32,801 nt of DNA from Candidatus Brocadia sp. (lineage in GTDB: Bacteria; Planctomycetota; Brocadiia; Brocadiales; Brocadiaceae), in the NCBI GenBank assembly GCA_011525665.1, contig WYAU01000042.1:1-32801 (forward strand), given 5' to 3'. This document shows, piece by piece, positions 11,624 through 19,960 of this stretch (positions are counted from its first letter, which is position 1; each line of letters begins with the position of its first letter). The notes below the pieces were generated by a model. That model was given only the letters and a program-made list of their open reading frames with translations. It searched no databases and had not been told where the DNA came from. The translations under genes were made by a program, and so were the position numbers.

Positions 11624-13366
11624 TTACATCCGTTCTGGTGCTTGCATCCCAAGAACATAAAGACCGTTCTTTACAACCTGACGGGTGGCATCCACCAGTA
11701 ATATTCTCGCCTTTTCCAGTTCTTCATCACCTGAAAGGACACGGTGAATATTATAAAACCTGTTCAGGTGGCCGCAAACATCAATGAGGTAATTACAGAT
11801 CAAAGAGGGTTCGTAAAACTCGGCCGCCTTCAGAATAACAGAGGGAAATTGCCCTAAATTTTTGATCAGGATTATGGCCTCGTCTTCTTTCAATAATTCA
11901 AAACGTATGTCTGCTGTCACAGGCCTCCCGTATTTCCTCAGGATACTGCAAAGGCGGGCATGGGTATACTGGATATAAGGACCCGTTTCACCCTCAAAAT
12001 TCAGCACCTCATCCCAATCAAAGATCACGTCTTTATTTCGCTTGGTGCATAGATCTGCGAAGATGACTGCCCCAATACCTACGTCCCTTGCCACGGACTC
12101 TTTGTTTTCTAACGAAGGATTCTTTTCCTCTATAATCTTTCTGATACGCTCAACAGCCCCGGTTAACAGGTCTTCCAGAAGAACAACTTTCCCCCTGCGT
12201 GTGGACATCTTGCCGTCTTTAAATTTCATGAGACCGAAATCCACATGCACGCAACGGTTCGCCCACTCGTATCCCATCAACTCTAAAACCTTGAAAAGCT
12301 GTTGAAAATGCAGCTTTTGTTCAGAACCGACCACATAAATCATCCTGTCAAAGTTATACGTATTCTTCCTGTATTCTGCGGCCGCAATATCACGGGTGGC
12401 GTAGAGTGTGGTATCGTCTTTTTTCCGCAAAAGACACGGGGGCATGTTGTGAGGTTCCAGATCGACAATCAATGCCTGTTCGCTCACCCTGGCGAGTCCC
12501 TTTTCTTTAATCCTCGTTATGGTATCTTCAACCATGGTGTTGTAAAAACTCTCACCGATGAAGGCATCGAAGTGTATCCCAAGCAGATCATAGATCTTCT
12601 GAAATTCTTTTAAACTGATGTCCTTGAAGTGTTGCCAGAGTTCTTTTGCTTCAGAATCGCCTGACTCAAGCTTCTTGAACCACGCCCTTGCTTCATCTTC
12701 CAGGCCAGGATTTTTTTCTGCCTCCTGGTGAAATTTTACGTAAAGGTTATTCAGGTCGGTGACCGTGTAAGACGTATGGGCATTTTCATTTCCCCACTTT
12801 TTATAGGCAACGATCAACTGGCCAAATTGCGTACCCCAGTCTCCAAGGTGATTGATCCCAACGCAGGTATATCCGAGGGCTTTATAGATATGGCGAATTG
12901 CGTTCCCGATCAGTGCAGACCGGAGGTGGTGAACGGCAAGGTGTTTTGCAATGTTTGGAGAAGAGAAGTCGATAACGACCGTCTTTCCCTTGCCAATGTT
13001 CTTATTACCATACTCATCGTGTTCTTCATAGATTGTTTTTAATGCTATTTCTGACAATGTTGCTTTGTCCACGGAGAAGTTTACATAAGGGCCAACGGCT
13101 TTTACCTCCGTAATTTCCCTTAGTCCCCTTTTTAAAAAAGGGGATTCAGGAGTATTTTCATTAATAAATGTCTGAAGTGTCCGGGATAGTTCCGTAGCAA
13201 TGATATTTGGGGCTTTTTTCAGGGTTTTTGAGAGGATGTAGCAGGGGAAGGCATAGTCACCCATTTTGAAGTCGGGTGGTATTTCAATGAGTCTTTCGAT
13301 TTCCTCTCCCGGAAGGTGTGTTTTCTCTTTTAATAAAGATACGATATTCTGTATAAAATAATCCAT
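11624..13366 (-). CDS. argS: Arginyl-tRNA synthetase
   Basis: A class I synthetase of 580 aa that charges tRNA-Arg. The start is taken at the ATG at 13366 (MDYFIQNIVSLL); an upstream in-frame TTG at 13405 lies inside a hairpin repeat and is unlikely. The N-terminal additional domain covers about 1-110. The HIGH-type motif in SSPNIAKHLAVHHLRS (136-151) reads A-V-H-H where most family members have H-V-G-H. The KMSKS-type motif is present as DGKMSTRRG near 385-393. The C-terminal DALR anticodon-binding domain runs to the end (GMQAPERM). Residues about 71-88 (NTPESPFLKRGLREITE) are an in-frame extra segment encoded by a palindromic repeat. Confidence 0.95.
   Translation of the reverse strand: MDYFIQNIVSLLKEKTHLPGEEIERLIEIPPDFKMGDYAFPCYILSKTLKKAPNIIATELSRTLQTFINENTPESPFLKRGLREITEVKAVGPYVNFSVDKATLSEIALKTIYEEHDEYGNKNIGKGKTVVIDFSSPNIAKHLAVHHLRSALIGNAIRHIYKALGYTCVGINHLGDWGTQFGQLIVAYKKWGNENAHTSYTVTDLNNLYVKFHQEAEKNPGLEDEARAWFKKLESGDSEAKELWQHFKDISLKEFQKIYDLLGIHFDAFIGESFYNTMVEDTITRIKEKGLARVSEQALIVDLEPHNMPPCLLRKKDDTTLYATRDIAAAEYRKNTYNFDRMIYVVGSEQKLHFQQLFKVLELMGYEWANRCVHVDFGLMKFKDGKMSTRRGKVVLLEDLLTGAVERIRKIIEEKNPSLENKESVARDVGIGAVIFADLCTKRNKDVIFDWDEVLNFEGETGPYIQYTHARLCSILRKYGRPVTADIRFELLKEDEAIILIKNLGQFPSVILKAAEFYEPSLICNYLIDVCGHLNRFYNIHRVLSGDEELEKARILLVDATRQVVKNGLYVLGMQAPERM
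13124..13144. repeat. Palindromic repeat inside argS
   Basis: TCCCCTTTTT and AAAAAGGGGA around one central A, followed by TTCAGGAG, the same CCCC-hairpin plus TCAGG arrangement as the palindrome at 6699-6742. It encodes the PESPFLKRGL segment of ArgRS at the edge of the N-terminal domain and keeps the frame. Confidence 0.7.
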
Positions 13367-13392
13367 AATGTTAAGAATTTCAAATCTGCGGC

Positions 13393-13421
13393 TGTAGAGC
13401 GACAAGACTCGTCGCTCTACA
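13393..13421. repeat. Hairpin repeat, copy 1
   Basis: TGTAGAGCGAC, loop AAGACTC, GTCGCTCTACA: an 11-bp perfect stem just upstream of argS. It shares its TGTAGAG ends and its 3' flank (GAAAGTCATCGAAGG against GAAAAGTCGCCGAAGG) with the hairpin at 13471-13500. Confidence 0.75.
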
Positions 13422-13529: not shown

Positions 13530-14507
13530 TCACATCAGCCCCATCTTTTTTTTCACTTCCGCCATGGTGTTTTCTGCCATATCCTTGCATTTCCTGGCGC
13601 CGGTACGCAGCAGTTCCAAGAGATAAGCCGGGTCATGGATCAATTGTTCATACCTCAGACGAATGGGAGTTAAAGCCTCACTGATATTATCAGAGAGGAT
13701 CTTTTTGCATTCGATACAACCGATCTCTGCCGAGCGGCATACCACATTGATACGGTCAATCTGGTCTTTTCGGGAGAAATGCTTATGCAAGGTGAAGAGA
13801 TTGCAGATGTCAGGGTTGCCGGGATCAGTGCGTCTCTTTCTGTTCTCATCGGTTACAGCTGTGGAGAGTTTCTTCCAGATTGATTCAGGAGTTTCCACCA
13901 GCGAAATATAATTTCCCAGACTCTTGCTCATCTTGGTTTTGCCGTCGAGTCCCATGATCCGTGGTGCCTCTGAGAGGATTTCATTCGGTTCCGGGAATGT
14001 TTCTCCGTATCGCATATTAAACTTCCGGGCGATCTCCCTGGCCAGTTCGATGTGCTGCACCTGATCCTCACCGACCGGTACGACCTCACCTTTGTAGAGC
14101 AAAATGTCCGCTGCCTGCAAAACAGGATACGTAAATAATCCCGCATTGATATTTTCCCTGTGCTGCTTTGACTTGTCTTTAAATTGGGTCATTCGTTCCA
14201 GATGTCCCATGGGAGTGACCGTATTGAGTATCCAGGCGAGTTCCGTATGTTCGGGTACAGAGGACTGGACAAAGATAATGCATCGTTCCGGATCAAGGCC
14301 TGCGGCAATATTGACAGCAGCCGCGTTGAGGATGCGCCTTTGCATTTCTTTCGGATCGTATTCAATGGTTATTGCATGATAATCGACGATGCAAAAGATA
14401 CAGTCGTACTGATCAATCATCCGCACCCAGTTCCTGATTGCCCCCAGGTAGTTGCCGATATGGACATCCCCGCTGGGTTGAATTCCGCTAAATAACCGCT
14501 TTTTCAT
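13530..14507 (-). CDS. trpS: Tryptophanyl-tRNA synthetase
   Basis: A 325-aa class I synthetase that charges tRNA-Trp. SGIQPSGDVHIGNYLGA places the HIGH-type motif HIGN at residues 16-19. KTKMSKSLGN gives an intact KMSKS at 192-196. VGEDQVQHIELAREIA (about 145-160) is the typical dimer/substrate region. The length is normal for the bacterial enzyme and the start ATG agrees with the family. It lies between the DapL-like gene (122-base gap) and argS (about 160-base gap containing two hairpin repeats), all on the minus strand. No T-box or leader peptide was found upstream. Confidence 0.97.
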   Translation of the reverse strand: MKKRLFSGIQPSGDVHIGNYLGAIRNWVRMIDQYDCIFCIVDYHAITIEYDPKEMQRRILNAAAVNIAAGLDPERCIIFVQSSVPEHTELAWILNTVTPMGHLERMTQFKDKSKQHRENINAGLFTYPVLQAADILLYKGEVVPVGEDQVQHIELAREIARKFNMRYGETFPEPNEILSEAPRIMGLDGKTKMSKSLGNYISLVETPESIWKKLSTAVTDENRKRRTDPGNPDICNLFTLHKHFSRKDQIDRINVVCRSAEIGCIECKKILSDNISEALTPIRLRYEQLIHDPAYLLELLRTGARKCKDMAENTMAEVKKKMGLM

Positions 14508-14629: not shown

Positions 14630-15817
14630 TTACAGAACCTTTGGCAATATCTTTTTGATCCGCCTTGCTGCTTCCCTTGTATTTTTCACACTGGGTACCA
14701 GGGCAAATCGTACGTAACCCTCACCGGGATTTGCCCCCGTTTCTGTCTTATCGCTAATCCATGCCCCGGGAGTCGTTACAATGGCAATATCAGGCGAAAG
14801 GAGCTTCCTGGCAAAGTCAACAGATGTCATGCCATCAGGTACCTTTTGCCAGAGATAAATTGTGGCCTCGGGGGTACAGTTGGGTAGTTTGATACATCTG
14901 AATGCATCCACCAGCAAATCCCTCTTGATCCGGTATTCGGCCCGCATCTTTTCGACATGGGACTCGTCGCTGAGGGCGGCAATAGCGCCATCCTGGATAA
15001 ATGTAGCCGTACCGGAATCAATATTTGTTTTTACCTTTTTAAATATATCGATAATCCGCTTATCACCTGCTACCCAGCCAACCCGGTAACACGTCATGGC
15101 GCTCCTCTTGGAGAAGGAATTGAAGACAATGACCCCTTCTTTTGTAATCTCCAGGATGCTGTGGGGTGGTTCGTTAAAATAGATCTCACTGTAGGCCTCG
15201 TCTGAGGCTATGATTATGTTGTGTTTGTTGCCAAATTCTACAATTTCTTTTAAATAGGATAAAGGCGCAACGGCTCCTGTGGGACTATTGGGGTAATTGA
15301 TCCACATGATTTTTGCCTGCCTGCAGATCTCCTCAGGGATTGACTTCAGATCGATCAGAAATTTATTTTCTGCAAGAAGTGGTACATAATAAGGAATCCC
15401 TTCGGCGAATAACGTACCTCGTGTGTAAGGAGGGTACCCGGGGGTTGGGATAATTACATAATCACCTGGATTGACGATTCCTTCCGGGAAATTGAATACC
15501 GCTTCTTTTGAACCGATTGTTGACGAAATCTCCGTGGTCGGTTCCATCTGTACGCCAAACCTTTTCTGCATCCACCGGGCAATCGCCTCCCGGAATTCAG
15601 GTGCGCCAATGTAGCTCGGATAACCTGAAGATTTCCTGAGTGTTATTCCCTTTTGTGTTGCCTTGCGGACAATGTCAGGTGTTGGCACCGTAGGGTCGCC
15701 AACGCCAAAATCAATGGGGGTAATCCCCATCGTCTTTAATTTTTCAACTTCTTTGTCTACTTCTGCAAAAGCATATGCGCCAATAGACAGTAGTCTCTTT
15801 GATGCCGTAATCTCCAT
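14630..15817 (-). CDS. Class I/II PLP aminotransferase, DapL-like (LL-diaminopimelate aminotransferase type)
   Basis: A 395-aa fold-type I aminotransferase. The PLP lysine is Lys237 in NSFSKRSAMTCYRVGW, with the phosphate-contacting Arg245 in the same motif. NYPNSPTG (about 174-181) and SDEAYSEIYF (205-214) supply the Asn, Asp and Tyr ligands of the cofactor. The start GVGDPTVPTPDIV and SSGYPSYIGAPEFREAIA resemble LL-diaminopimelate aminotransferases, which make the lysine and peptidoglycan precursor from tetrahydrodipicolinate in one step; related succinyl-DAP or alanine-type activity cannot be excluded. It is the third gene of the aroF operon, 27 bases after the NimA-like gene, so it may be co-controlled by the aroF attenuator. 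Confidence 0.85.
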   Translation of the reverse strand: MEITASKRLLSIGAYAFAEVDKEVEKLKTMGITPIDFGVGDPTVPTPDIVRKATQKGITLRKSSGYPSYIGAPEFREAIARWMQKRFGVQMEPTTEISSTIGSKEAVFNFPEGIVNPGDYVIIPTPGYPPYTRGTLFAEGIPYYVPLLAENKFLIDLKSIPEEICRQAKIMWINYPNSPTGAVAPLSYLKEIVEFGNKHNIIIASDEAYSEIYFNEPPHSILEITKEGVIVFNSFSKRSAMTCYRVGWVAGDKRIIDIFKKVKTNIDSGTATFIQDGAIAALSDESHVEKMRAEYRIKRDLLVDAFRCIKLPNCTPEATIYLWQKVPDGMTSVDFARKLLSPDIAIVTTPGAWISDKTETGANPGEGYVRFALVPSVKNTREAARRIKKILPKVL

Positions 15818-15844: not shown

Positions 15845-16345
15845 TTACTTTTTTGACGGGTCTGTAACCGCCGGTTTCACAGGGCTTCTTTTGGCGGTTA
15901 TTTCTTTGATTTCTATCTCAAGCACATTTGTCTTGTTCAGCATCGCATCTGTGAAAGGCACTTTGGGATTCTGAGGTGCATACTTTTCGGCAAGTTTCTG
16001 GAGGGCATAGTTCTTTGTGTTGACTTCAGAAAGTGTTTTTATGATTCCGAACACAATAACAGACCGATAAGCGACAGAAGAGGCGCAGGTAGGCTGCTTT
16101 ACAATTACGTTATTGACTTCTTCCACCTCAAAACATACATACGGATTAACTCTGATATTTTCCAGTTTTCTTCCTTCGTTTGCGCAGTGAAGGAAGATTT
16201 TGGAGGCCTCTTTGTCGTAAGTGAAATTCATGGGTGTGATATAGGGAATACCATGTGCGCATGTTCCCAACCTTCCCACCAGAGACGTTACAAGGATCTC
16301 CTCTATTTCGTTCTTATCCGTTATTGCTTTGTCTTTCCTTCTCAC
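15845..16345 (-). CDS. NimA-like FMN-binding protein of the pyridoxamine 5'-phosphate oxidase fold
   Basis: A 166-aa split-barrel flavoprotein. MRRKDKAITDKNEIEEIL at the start, GRLGTCAHGIPYITPMNF (about 29-46), HCANEGRKLENIRVNPYVCFEVE (53-75, in parts) and the AYRSVIVFGI segment are the signature of the pyridoxamine 5'-phosphate oxidase-like / nitroimidazole-resistance family. The real substrate is unknown; members reduce or bind diverse compounds with FMN. The start is a GTG at 16345, three bases after the aroF stop, so it is translationally close to aroF and belongs to that operon. The C-terminal SPVKPAVTDPSKK tail is a short basic extension. Confidence 0.87.
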   Translation of the reverse strand: MRRKDKAITDKNEIEEILVTSLVGRLGTCAHGIPYITPMNFTYDKEASKIFLHCANEGRKLENIRVNPYVCFEVEEVNNVIVKQPTCASSVAYRSVIVFGIIKTLSEVNTKNYALQKLAEKYAPQNPKVPFTDAMLNKTNVLEIEIKEITAKRSPVKPAVTDPSKK

Positions 16346-16348
16346 TGT

Positions 16349-17365
16349 TTATACTTTTCTTCCAACCGCTTCCGCTACGGGTTTTAATTCTTCCATGAGT
16401 TCTTCAAATGCTTCAAGGGTTATCGTTTGTGGGCCATCCACAAATGACTTTTCTGGTTCCGGATGGGTCTCGATGAGCAAACCGTCTGCGCCCACTGCCA
16501 CGGCGCCCTTGGACATCGGGTTCACAAGGCTCCTTTTCCCTGTTCCATGGCTGGGATCCACAATGATCGGGAGATGTGTCATCTCCCTGAGTTGAGGAAC
16601 AATACTCAGCGACAACGTAAACCGTGTATGGGTTTCAAAGGTCCGAATACCCCTTTCGCACAGAATGACATTGGGATTGTTTTGCGCCAGGATATATTCT
16701 GCGGCCAGGAGAAATTCGTCAATTGTGGCGGACATCCCGCGTTTTAAAATCACGGGTTTGCCCGCTTCACCCACGGCGCGCAGGAGTAAAAAATTCTGCA
16801 TGTTGCGTGTTCCAACCTGCAATATATCAGAATATTTGCTCACTAATTTTACGTGTTCCGGTGTAAGTACCTCGGTTACGATGGGCAGACCCGACGCCTC
16901 GCGGGCATGCGCCAGATGGACGAGACCTTCTTCCATAAGTCCCTGGAATGTATAGGGGTTGCTTCTGGGTTTGAATGCGCCCCCCCGCAATGCCGTTGCA
17001 CCGGCGTCTCTGACCCTTTTGGCGATTTCAATTATCTGCTCTTTGCTTTCAATAGCGCATGGTCCTGCAATAACGGCGATTTCTTCAGCGCCGATTTTTT
17101 TACCATTCTTCAGATGAATGATTGTTCTAAAGTCCTTTCCTTCCTTGCTGGCCAGTTTATATGGCGCAAGAATCGGAACGGATTTCTCCACGCCTGGCAT
17201 CACATCCCAGAAATCCGCAGGTAGTACCCGTTCATCCCCAATAACGGCAATTACATTCCGGTTCGTTCCCTGCAATACAACCCCTTTTAAGCCGGCCTTT
17301 TCTATATTTTCAAGGACGTGATCTATATCCTTTTTTGTTGACTCGGCCTTCATTACAATAATCAT
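16349..17365 (-). CDS. aroF: 3-deoxy-7-phosphoheptulonate (DAHP) synthase, type I-beta with N-terminal regulatory domain
   Basis: A 338-aa enzyme joining phosphoenolpyruvate and erythrose 4-phosphate, the entry step of aromatic amino acid synthesis. Residues 1 to about 70 form the ferredoxin-like regulatory domain found in the Thermotoga-type enzyme, where it mediates feedback by Tyr or Phe. The barrel has AGPCAIES, GGAFKPRSNPYTFQG, GTRNMQN, LKRGM, CERGIRTFET and PIIVDPSHGTGKR, the complete set of substrate and metal motifs. A GGTGGGGGTG ribosome site precedes the ATG. The gene follows a leader with an aromatic-rich peptide and an intrinsic terminator, so expression is probably attenuated by aromatic amino acid supply in addition to enzyme feedback. 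Confidence 0.96.
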   Translation of the reverse strand: MIIVMKAESTKKDIDHVLENIEKAGLKGVVLQGTNRNVIAVIGDERVLPADFWDVMPGVEKSVPILAPYKLASKEGKDFRTIIHLKNGKKIGAEEIAVIAGPCAIESKEQIIEIAKRVRDAGATALRGGAFKPRSNPYTFQGLMEEGLVHLAHAREASGLPIVTEVLTPEHVKLVSKYSDILQVGTRNMQNFLLLRAVGEAGKPVILKRGMSATIDEFLLAAEYILAQNNPNVILCERGIRTFETHTRFTLSLSIVPQLREMTHLPIIVDPSHGTGKRSLVNPMSKGAVAVGADGLLIETHPEPEKSFVDGPQTITLEAFEELMEELKPVAEAVGRKV

Positions 17366-17394: not shown

Positions 17395-17427
17395 AAAAAA
17401 AAGCCCTAAAACCAACGGTTTTAGGGC
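17395..17427 (-). terminator. Attenuator (leader terminator) of aroF
   Basis: On the minus strand GCCCTAAAACC, loop GTT, GGTTTTAGGGC (17427-17403), then eight T (17402-17395). The perfect 11-bp stem with U-tract lies 29 bases before the aroF ATG, where a terminator would silence the gene unless it is controlled. The plus strand has no T-run here, so it acts on aroF transcription only. Confidence 0.93.
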
Positions 17428-17460
17428 AGTATAGAGAAAGCGTTTGCAATTAATATCGAA

Positions 17461-17471
17461 CCCTAATAACC
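17461..17471 (-). promoter_or_regulatory. Candidate antiterminator strand of the aroF attenuator
   Basis: GGTTATTAGGG, spanning the last Tyr codon and stop codon of the leader peptide, can pair with CCCTAAAACC, the 5' arm of the terminator, with one bulged A (10 pairs). A ribosome resting at the stop codon would mask it and let the terminator form. A ribosome stalled at the upstream Tyr codons would leave it free to form the antiterminator. Confidence 0.75.
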
Positions 17472-17546
17472 CCCTCGTTTATAATAATATTTAAAATAAT
17501 AAAATACCCAATAACAATATTTTAAATTATTCCCGGGGATATTCAT
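17463..17546 (-). CDS. Aromatic-rich leader peptide controlling aroF
   Basis: A 27-codon open frame on the minus strand from ATG (17544-17546) to TAG (17463-17465), with an AGGA ribosome site about nine bases upstream. It starts MNIPGNNLK and continues YCYWVFYYFKYYY, then KRGGY. Eleven of 27 residues are aromatic: Tyr at 10, 12, 16, 17, 20, 21, 22 and 27, Phe at 15 and 18, Trp at 13. It lies between the promoter and the leader terminator of the DAHP synthase gene, the classical place and composition of an attenuation peptide. The Tyr run at 20-22 ends nine bases before the antiterminator strand begins, the distance needed for stalling control. Tyrosine is the likely main signal, with Phe and Trp secondary. 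Confidence 0.88.
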   Translation of the reverse strand: MNIPGNNLKYCYWVFYYFKYYYKRGGY

Positions 17547-17585
17547 AACCGAATCCTATAAACAAAAGGAATTACTATACCCCAA

Positions 17586-17613
17586 ATTTTACATAACACC
17601 GTTTTATTGTCAA
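17586..17613 (-). promoter_or_regulatory. Promoter of the aroF operon
   Basis: On the minus strand TTGACA (17608-17613), 16-base spacer, TAAAAT (17586-17591). Transcription would begin near 17578, about 30 bases before the leader peptide ATG. Confidence 0.8.
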
Positions 17614-17737: not shown

Positions 17738-19960
17738 TTGAAAAAAAGTCTCCCTCTTTTGTGCTTATTGCTGCCCTTCCTTATTTCAATTATCGTTTAT
17801 CTGAATTGCCTGGAGAATTCCTTTGTTTACGACGATGAATCGACGATCATTAACAATTACTTCATACGGTATTGGAGTAATTTCCCAAATCTTTTTACCG
17901 GTAAATACTTTGTCCTTTCGGCAGAACTAACGTATCGCCCGGTAGTAACCCTGTCATATTTTATTGATTATACCTTCTGGCATTTGAATCCATTGGGGTA
18001 TCATCTTACCAATATACTCCTTCACTCCGTTAATAGCGTCCTCTTCTTTGTTTTTGCCTTTCTGATAGTGAAAAAAAGATCAGGCGCCTTGATTGCTGCC
18101 CTCTTTTTTTCATCCTTTCCTGTCTTTTCTGAAGCAGTCAATGCCATTGGTTTTCGGGAAGACCTCATGGCATTTCTGTTTCTGATCCTGGCCTTCATTT
18201 TTTATTTGAAGACAGGTGCTGCTCATTTTCGGGGTAGACACAATGCCTTTTCGTCTGTTTCCAGAGAAACCGATCCAAAAGGTATGTGTGTCACCACCCC
18301 TTTGCCCCCTCCTTGCGAAGGAGGGAAAAGAGGGGAGGTTATAAAATCACAAAAAGTTTCATTTGATGGGGAACAATTACAAAAAACAGGCCAATTAAGA
18401 TATATCCTTTATTATTCCCTGTCACTGATTTCTTATTTTTTGAGTCTTTTTTCCAAAGAAATGGCAATTACTTTTCCTTTCTTGATAGTCTTGTACGACT
18501 TGATTTTTCAAGGCCTTTTAGTAAAAAATGATAATCCTTCTTTCTCTCCCTTTGGGGGAGGGGGAATTGGGCTCTTGAATCTCAAATCAAAATTTCTCCA
18601 GTATTATTTGGGATATTTTTTGATTACTGTTTTATATGTCTTAACCCGTTTTTACTTTCTCCATAATCCCCGGGAATCACATATCCCTTATCCACAGGAT
18701 AGTCTTTTCATCAACTTCCTGACCATGACTCACGTGCTGGCCTCTTATGTAAAACTTCTCTTCCTCCCTTTTAAACTGAATGCCGATTACATCGTCCCTT
18801 TTCCTGTATCGCCTGTAAACATCTCATTTTGGTTGTCTGTCTTGCTTTTTATGGCAATAGGTATATTTACATTCCGGTTACGATCTCACCATAAGCATAT
18901 TTTCTTTTTTATCCTCTGGTTCTTTGCCACACTCATCCCGGTGATGAACATTGTGCCATTGGGGAATATCATGGCGGAACGTTATTTATATATACCGGGT
19001 GCTGGTTTTTGCATGATTGCCGCTCGTTTGCTATCAAAAAGGCAAAATAGATTCAGCGCTGAATCTTTCCATGCTTTTCCCCTTGGGCACAGGAGGGATA
19101 AAGGTGGGGTAAAAAAGAATGCTTTTGCAGGGCGTATTATTGCTTCATATCTGCCGTTATCCGGTTTCTTCATCTTTGTATTATTCTTCATTCTGATGGG
19201 GAATGCCTGCCTGACTTTATGGAGAAACAATGACTGGAAGGATGGCTTACAATTATGGTCAAAGACAATTCTTACCTCACCAAACAGTTTCAGGGCGCAC
19301 ATTAACCTGGGGAATGCTTATGAAAAAGAGGGGCTCAACAACGCGGCCCTGGAAGAATACCAAAAGGCCTTATCCATCGATCCACATGATGCTGATGTCT
19401 ACAATAACCTTGGAGTCTATTATAACACGATGAACATTTTTGATGACGCCATCCGGTACTTCACAAAATGCCTGAGTATAAATCCCCGTCATGCGCGGGC
19501 GTATAATAATCTGGGTGTTGTGTTGACAAGGCAAAGGCGTTTAAGTGATGCGATTCAGGCATTCTGGCAGGCCGTCTCCCTTAATCCGCTGTATCCTGAT
19601 GCCCATAACAACCTGGGTATAGCTTATTATAGAAAAGGGCTGATGGACGATGCCGAACGTGAGTTTAAATTAACCATCAGCATAGAACCTTATCACGCGG
19701 AGGCCCATAACGACCTCGGAATTTTGTACACGGATAAGCATCTGTACGATGACGCCATTTATGAGTTTGAGACAGCTACACAGATAAAACCTGACTATGC
19801 AAATGCCCACATGAACCTGGGTGCGGTTATCCTCAGACACAGGAAGGATAAAGGCAGGGCATTGTTTCACCTGAAAGAGAGCATAAAAATCGACCCATAC
19901 CAGGAACAGGCGGCTGGAATAAAAAAGCTTATACAGCAATTGGAAGAAGCTGCCAGATGA
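17738..19960 (+). CDS. TMTC-like membrane protein: GT-C glycosyltransferase-type N-terminus with C-terminal TPR repeats
   Basis: A 740-aa protein starting at TTG (17738) after an AAGGACTGAG site. A signal-anchor is followed by VYDDESTI (residues 30-37, acidic residues Asp32/Asp33 in the first external loop) and TYRPVVTLSYF (about 65-75), hallmarks of the TMTC/PMT-type lipid-linked sugar transferase fold. Eight to ten hydrophobic segments run to about residue 490. From about 520 to 735 there are six TPR repeats (for example AYNNLGVVLTRQRRLSDAIQ). Bacterial relatives are poorly characterised; protein O-glycosylation is an inference. Three loops, about residues 170-222, 266-285 and 440-465, are Pro/Gly/Lys-rich and encoded by C-rich hairpin repeats inserted in frame. 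Confidence 0.85.
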   Translation: MKKSLPLLCLLLPFLISIIVYLNCLENSFVYDDESTIINNYFIRYWSNFPNLFTGKYFVLSAELTYRPVVTLSYFIDYTFWHLNPLGYHLTNILLHSVNSVLFFVFAFLIVKKRSGALIAALFFSSFPVFSEAVNAIGFREDLMAFLFLILAFIFYLKTGAAHFRGRHNAFSSVSRETDPKGMCVTTPLPPPCEGGKRGEVIKSQKVSFDGEQLQKTGQLRYILYYSLSLISYFLSLFSKEMAITFPFLIVLYDLIFQGLLVKNDNPSFSPFGGGGIGLLNLKSKFLQYYLGYFLITVLYVLTRFYFLHNPRESHIPYPQDSLFINFLTMTHVLASYVKLLFLPFKLNADYIVPFPVSPVNISFWLSVLLFMAIGIFTFRLRSHHKHIFFFILWFFATLIPVMNIVPLGNIMAERYLYIPGAGFCMIAARLLSKRQNRFSAESFHAFPLGHRRDKGGVKKNAFAGRIIASYLPLSGFFIFVLFFILMGNACLTLWRNNDWKDGLQLWSKTILTSPNSFRAHINLGNAYEKEGLNNAALEEYQKALSIDPHDADVYNNLGVYYNTMNIFDDAIRYFTKCLSINPRHARAYNNLGVVLTRQRRLSDAIQAFWQAVSLNPLYPDAHNNLGIAYYRKGLMDDAEREFKLTISIEPYHAEAHNDLGILYTDKHLYDDAIYEFETATQIKPDYANAHMNLGAVILRHRKDKGRALFHLKESIKIDPYQEQAAGIKKLIQQLEEAAR
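18292..18342. repeat. In-frame hairpin repeat in the TMTC-like gene
   Basis: CCCTCCTT, loop GCG, AAGGAGGG at the centre, flanked by ACCCCTTTGC and AAAAGAGGGG. It has the same C-rich build as the intergenic palindrome at 7297-7342 and encodes TPLPPPCEGGKRGE in an expected extramembrane loop. A weaker relative lies at about 18541-18570. Confidence 0.7.

Follow-up and report, generated by a model that had tools for sequence, protein, structure and literature searches.

A putative ribosome-mediated attenuator with an aromatic leader peptide upstream of the DAHP synthase gene aroF in Brocadiaceae

The aroF locus and its leader region

The window analyzed here is the whole stretch of 32,801 nucleotides from Candidatus Brocadia sp., a member of the anammox family Brocadiaceae. 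Its minus strand encodes a type I-beta DAHP synthase, aroF, preceded by a short leader region and followed closely by two further genes. The features are listed below in the direction of transcription.

17586 to 17613, minus strand: promoter-like site TTGACA-16-TAAAAT, matching the consensus at 11 of 12 positions
17554 to 17557, minus strand: AGGA, a weak Shine-Dalgarno-like site 7 nt 5' of the leader ATG
17463 to 17546, minus strand: leader peptide ORF of 27 codons, MNIPGNNLKYCYWVFYYFKYYYKRGGY and a stop codon, with its frame kept in relatives
17481 to 17504, minus strand: putative control codons F15-Y16-Y17-F18-K19-Y20-Y21-Y22, with the modelled switch point just 3' of them
17461 to 17471, minus strand: putative antiterminator strand GGTTATTAGGG, overlapping the leader stop codon; consensus in relatives GGTTCTTAGGGTTCGATATTA
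17403 to 17427, minus strand: intrinsic terminator hairpin GCCCTAAAACC-GTT-GGTTTTAGGGC, perfect and 11 bp long, its 5' arm common to the antiterminator
17395 to 17402, minus strand: T8 tract of the terminator, read from the sequence
16349 to 17365, minus strand: aroF, type I-beta DAHP synthase, starting 29 nt 3' of the T tract
15845 to 16345, minus strand: gene of a PPOX-fold protein (PF12900), 3 nt 3' of aroF; NimA-like, far below the NimABCDEF cut-off
14630 to 15817, minus strand: class I/II aminotransferase gene, 27 nt further on; nearest to LL-diaminopimelate aminotransferase models, below their cut-offs

The aroF product scores above the cut-offs of NCBIfam NF006421 and TIGR01361, matches Pfam PF00793, and has full-length PDB matches to the solved relatives 4grs, 1rzm and 3pg9. 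Residues 1-66 form an N-terminal ferredoxin-like regulatory domain (PF18152), a domain which in the DAHP synthase of Thermotoga maritima mediates feedback inhibition by Tyr and Phe. The second PF00793 match of the genome shares only about 28% identity with the aroF product and is probably a KDO8P synthase; aroF is thus the sole close DAHP synthase homologue that the genome yielded.

In every Brocadiaceae locus inspected (L003-L030), aroF is followed by the genes of the PPOX-fold protein and the aminotransferase, and no same-strand terminator-like site was found between aroF and these two genes. The gene order points to a likely operon of the three, and the suggestion in the earlier note that the two downstream genes are co-controlled is supported. 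Behind this cluster lie trpS (13530-14507) and argS (11624-13405), both on the minus strand, with gaps of 122 and 124 nt. A Trp codon is present in the leaders of the window's genus (9 of 22 leaders overall), so that a link to trpS is conceivable. In the other direction, a divergent plus-strand gene (17738-19960) encodes a membrane protein with TPR-like repeats; its start is about 125 nt from the attenuator promoter, and it stays beside aroF in part of the relatives.

The leader ORF of the window contains eight Tyr, two Phe and one Trp codons. The earlier note had placed an attenuator at 17395-17613, composed of promoter, 27-codon Tyr-rich ORF, 11-bp terminator with T8 tract, and 29 nt to aroF; span and parts are right base for base. 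The ribosome site that it included is present as AGGA 7 nt before the ATG, and is only weak; clearer GGAG sites precede the leaders of L026, L028 and L029. Its claim that the sequence at the stop codon pairs with the terminator 5' arm was reproduced by duplex computation: GGTTATTAGGG and CCCTAAAACC of the arm form 10 pairs interrupted by a single bulged A, and a further U-G pair, at -14.0 kcal/mol.

Taken alone, promoter-like and terminator-like matches are near chance frequency in the region (6 against 3.6 expected and 1 against 1.3 expected, respectively). The leader ORF is the single aromatic-dense ORF in the window (10-60 codons, at least 8 aromatic residues in 10 codons), and dinucleotide shuffles of the whole window yield 0.025 ORFs of this class on average. 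The terminator and the leader are supported by their conservation among related sequences.

Conservation of the leader and of its alternative pairings

An aroF match, in some cases merely a distant one, was obtained in 61 of the 62 genomes of the order, and the upstream regions of the relevant genomes were extracted. Among the relatives that bear names are Candidatus Brocadia sp. BIN37 and Candidatus Loosdrechtia aerotolerans, which places the window in the Brocadiaceae. The earlier note had proposed a search for conservation in relatives, and the peptide frame with its aromatic codons proved conserved in 22 aligned Brocadiaceae leaders. These leaders keep a core Tyr-Phe-(Lys/Arg/Ser)-Tyr with synonymous codon changes. 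The first Tyr is found in 22 of 22 leaders (TAT in 6, TAC in 16), as is the Phe; the third position is Lys, Arg or Ser, encoded by AGA, AGG, CGA, AAA, AAG or AGC; and the last Tyr is kept in 21 of 22 (TAT in 12, TAC in 9). In the window, Y17, F18 and Y20 are the control codons that are invariant or nearly so. Diversity within the core of the 22 leaders is 0.19, 0.23 and 0.37 at the first, second and third codon positions. The flanks of the core vary freely, with Tyr replaced by Cys, His or Asp, and nearly all Brocadiaceae leaders have Tyr as their final aromatic codons ahead of the stop.

Across genera, the leaders differ in their start codons and ribosome sites. L026, L028 and L029, from another genus, possess very short leaders, MYFYYNIRCS, MYFKYFSIQIRCS and MYFKYCYYQIRRS, with a good GGAG-like site, and the leader of L027 terminates early. 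An element closely similar to the promoter of the window, TTGACAAT..-TAxAxT, lies 5' of the leader in most relatives. In L018 the sequence TTGACA-17-TACACT is followed after just about 8 nt by the leader ATG, possibly giving a leaderless transcript.

A covariance model of leader and terminator detected one site per genome, directly 5' of aroF, in 29 of the 29 Brocadiaceae in which the 5' end of the gene is present. It also matched G059 (E 2e-5) and G060 (E 0.047), which belong to another family and were absent from model building; one extra match, in G040, was at chance level (E 0.98). No further leader copies before other genes were found above chance with this model in the 61 genomes. Within the order (g20), no aromatic leader was found in f3 and in most f4 genomes.

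In most genomes, the terminator 5' arm CCCUAAAACC can pair with the segment GGUUCUUAGGG that surrounds the leader stop codon, and the register GGUU-x-UUAGGGU:GCCCUAAAACC is the same in most of them. Compared with dinucleotide shuffles, the antiterminator duplex has a mean z of -2.27 over 31 genomes and reaches p<0.05 in 20 of the 31, the sequences being related and hence not independent. Antiterminator cells are paired at 85.8%, falling to at most 61% after sliding; terminator cells are paired at 95% in 29 genomes and at most 71% in the sliding control. Both pairing partners, whose conservation the earlier note had also proposed to examine, are retained in relatives; the lack of conservation that would have spoken against its reading was not seen. 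In several genomes (e.g. L011, L016, L025) the terminator loop takes in the last C of the antiterminator partner CC, and the conservation of this partner is therefore more readily attributed to the antiterminator than to the terminator.

Column-wise covariation in the Brocadiaceae alignment was not above shuffles for either the antiterminator or the terminator, because the pairing columns are nearly invariant, and the covariation argument rests on two distant lineages. In L061, from another family, the pairing is GGCGG..UAGGGU:GCCCUA.CCGCC, and the altered terminator stem and leader read CCCUAUCCGCC and GGCGGUCUUAGGG, respectively. L034, from a third family, has AGGUU.UUAGGGC:GCCCUAAGACUU, with both sides altered again. 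At the sequence level, these are concerted re-pairings in two distant lineages. The leaders of L012 and L023 are broken, by loss of start codon and frame or by an in-frame stop, and their antiterminators are damaged (UAAGGG, UUUAGUG), while the terminators are intact. Leader and antiterminator may thus decay together as parts that belong together, through natural loss or assembly error.

Conservation reaches beyond the antiterminator in the sequence GGGTTCGATATTA (window 17451-17463), which lies at and 3' of the leader stop. In many relatives this sequence can pair with TTAATATATTG 5' of the terminator, and poorly so in the window.

Ribosome position, the proposed switch and its signal

The ribosome front edge was assumed, in line with known ribosome footprints, to lie 13 nt past the first base of the A-site codon, and the unoccupied RNA was folded with each codon in turn in the A site. 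In the five leaders walked in this way, the antiterminator keeps its full strength while the ribosome passes all, or almost all, of the aromatic codons; it begins to weaken on the last of them or just beyond, and has disappeared 1-3 codons later, at Gly codons. The arm-paired probability is 1.0 at the last Tyr codons and at most 0.2 from the first Gly codon on, with the exception of L022, where it is 0.31 at the stop. Over 19 genomes it is 0.996 with the ribosome at Tyr and 0.12 with the ribosome at the stop. The geometry put forward in the earlier note, in which a ribosome stalled on Tyr codons 20-22 leaves the segment free and one at the stop covers it, fits this codon-by-codon model.

In equilibrium folding, 10 of the 19 genomes, that of the window included, favor the complete terminator over the antiterminator even with a stalled ribosome. 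The switch must therefore act kinetically, during transcription, as in other attenuators. When folded with no ribosome, the RNA has its arm paired upstream, yet the terminator forms in most genomes at equilibrium. A conserved 1:2 protector pairing was not found in the 19 genomes folded, and a CCCC/GGGG pairing is possible solely in the window and some members of its genus. The untranslated state is therefore not clearly OFF.

A short ORF rich in codons for the end products of the pathway, supported by frame conservation, is found here together with a terminator before the first structural gene, a conserved and mutually exclusive antiterminator, and ribosome-dependent exposure and covering in the folding model. 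With high confidence, we regard the aroF leader as a predicted classical ribosome-mediated transcription attenuator. RNA polymerase would start at the promoter near 17600, with a ribosome trailing it along the leader of 27 codons. Under a shortage of charged tRNA-Tyr, and probably also of charged tRNA-Phe, the ribosome would halt at aromatic codons 15-22 and leave GGUUAUUAGGG free to pair with the terminator 5' arm as the arm is made; the antiterminator would then preclude the terminator, and aroF and the two genes behind it would be transcribed. With plentiful charged tRNA, the ribosome would reach the stop codon inside GGUUAUUAGGG and cover this segment, so that the terminator would form and transcription would end before aroF. 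The analysis shows the sequence parts of this scheme, their conservation, the mutually exclusive pairings and, in a folding model, the geometry; leader translation, the direction of control, the amino acid(s) sensed and termination in vivo are inferred.

Such an attenuator would place a textbook translation-coupled RNA switch in Planctomycetota. Anammox cells are known for unusual compartments, and a working attenuator implies a sufficiently tight coupling of transcription to translation in these bacteria, which is testable. It would offer a likely point of control over the one close DAHP synthase homologue that was found in this genome, whose product also carries the Tyr/Phe-type feedback domain, and the leader would be a ready reporter of tyrosine starvation.

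The description of the attenuator as tyrosine-type in the earlier note holds in that Tyr dominates, and is too narrow in that Phe is as invariant as Tyr in the core; the leader sequences suggest that charging with Tyr and Phe is probably sensed jointly. A leader that responds to phenylalanine, or to the aromatic amino acids generally, rather than to tyrosine alone is a possible reading, though less likely than not. The invariant Phe, the Phe/Trp-rich leaders of sister families (FWYFYFGSE, FWFGRFYF, GFWGFFYF), and aroR of Corynebacterium glutamicum, which has FYF and answers to Phe only (PMC11802643), argue for this, whereas the Tyr codons outnumber the Phe codons 8 to 2 in the window, lie nearest the switch point, and are the last aromatic ones before the stop in nearly all Brocadiaceae.

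Considerably less probable is an arrest peptide operating the same RNA switch, in which the ribosome is stopped by nascent YYF(K/R)YY inside its exit tunnel, perhaps together with free tyrosine or another small molecule, and not by a lack of charged tRNA. The core is indeed kept as amino acids, including Lys/Arg between Phe and Tyr, beyond what codon counting needs. However, the residues around it vary freely, the short leaders of L026, L028 and L029 have no fixed motif beyond aromatics, and other lineages use FWYFYF, FLYYYPYY or FYYCFYYY, so that composition is kept and not sequence.

A metabolite riboswitch or T-box in place of a translated leader would also fit the position and the terminator/antiterminator layout, but is very improbable, since no Rfam family reaches threshold in the window and conservation from the stop codon to the terminator is poor except for GGGTTCGATATTA. 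Searches of Rfam with the window, and a relaxed search with the leader, gave sub-threshold matches only and no T-box; the covariance models of the Trp, Phe, His, Leu and Thr leader families were not matched. Equally remote is an unrelated small-transcript terminator or fixed brake beside a chance ORF: Tyr and Phe codons arise readily in AT-rich DNA and the promoter and terminator matches are individually unremarkable, but the rarity of such ORFs in shuffles, the conserved frame and codons, and the position of the antiterminator at the stop codon of related leaders argue against it.

Wider distribution and known systems

Aromatic leaders were also found before the DAHP synthase gene outside the order, namely in other orders of planctomycetes, in lineages of deltaproteobacteria, in Poribacteria and in Actinomycetes. 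In other families of the same class, FWYFYFGSE, FFYFYFGSE, FWYFYFTLR and FWFGRFYF leaders are followed by a terminator, and other planctomycetes have GFWGFFYF, GFWGYFYA and LWKFFYFVF leaders; these Phe/Trp/Tyr leaders from other orders of the class and other planctomycetes comprise L145, L146, L149, L144, L153, L157 and L167. A survey of 75 distant DAHP synthase loci from many phyla, requiring at least 4 aromatic residues in 7 codons of a short upstream ORF, detected such an ORF in 29 of the 75 loci compared with 10 of 144 control windows. Some of the 29 are probably chance ORFs, and part of them pair no better than shuffles. Loci with aromatic leaders in other phyla include L069, L072, L076, L078, L093, L094, L125, L107, L114, L117 and L123, several of them followed by a terminator, with MNCNSWQSFSFLYYYPYYHRREGAPGMR, MHTGLYCFYYFYFYPGEGTASGMLSFR, MNGGLFYYCFYYYPLRGAASGTLGY and MQRNFWRFYGYRPDTPVACKALR as examples of leaders.

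Perfect 12-bp antiterminators are present in some distant loci, e.g. L069 and L072. In a simple pairing test on the wider set, L069, L072, L078, L125 and L061 are strong; with the arm as cut, L094, L145, L149, L114 and L123 are weak, and L076, L093, L144 and L146 are no better than shuffles, the arm cut in L076 having missed a GGTATGC that can pair with GCATACC. L099 (Bacillota MES5) has AGGGTGGTACCACG, a T-box-like antiterminator motif, 5' of its DAHP synthase gene, which is another sensor in the same place. On balance, and with reserve, we favor the view that aromatic leader attenuation of type I-beta DAHP synthase genes is widespread and either old or repeatedly invented. On this view it would be ancestral in the anammox class and would extend to other planctomycetes, to deltaproteobacterial lineages, and to Poribacteria and Actinomycetes, the amino acid that is sensed having shifted among Tyr, Phe and Trp.

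The pheL-pheA and trpL-trpE systems of E. coli likewise combine control codons with a mutually exclusive antiterminator and terminator, in front of other genes and with Phe or Trp codons; they have a 1:2 protector pairing, whereas no conserved one was found in the Brocadiaceae leaders. Tyrosine T-boxes of Firmicutes also sense the charging of tRNA-Tyr and end in a choice between terminator and antiterminator, but they bind the uncharged tRNA directly without translation, and no T-box match lies at the Brocadia leader.

Among the closest known systems is the aroR-aroF attenuator of C. glutamicum (Neshat et al. 2014, as described in PMC11802643; PMC4046766), in which an aromatic leader peptide and a ribosome-mediated attenuator also precede a DAHP synthase gene. 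That leader has a Phe-Tyr-Phe core, answers to Phe and not Tyr, and controls one of two DAHP synthases in an actinobacterium; the Brocadia leader, likened to it by description, is Tyr-dominated, belongs to Planctomycetota and precedes the only close DAHP synthase homologue found, of type I-beta. The uORFC-13-1 motif (PMC8632094), also likened by description, consists of a promoter, a short ORF with Phe codon(s) and a terminator before aroF, and was proposed as an attenuator; it was found only in Acholeplasma and environmental sequences, has at least one Phe codon, and its function is proposed. According to a 2010 survey (PMC2965389), leader peptides had been known from Proteobacteria and Actinobacteria only, to which the survey added Firmicutes.

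The earlier note had called such a system not described. For Planctomycetota this stands, as no published leader-peptide attenuator was found there in a literature search that covered subscription papers incompletely; for DAHP synthase genes it does not, leader attenuation being known or proposed in Corynebacterium and Acholeplasma. The mechanism is classical and already known from other bacterial groups, and its predicted occurrence in Planctomycetota appears to be new.
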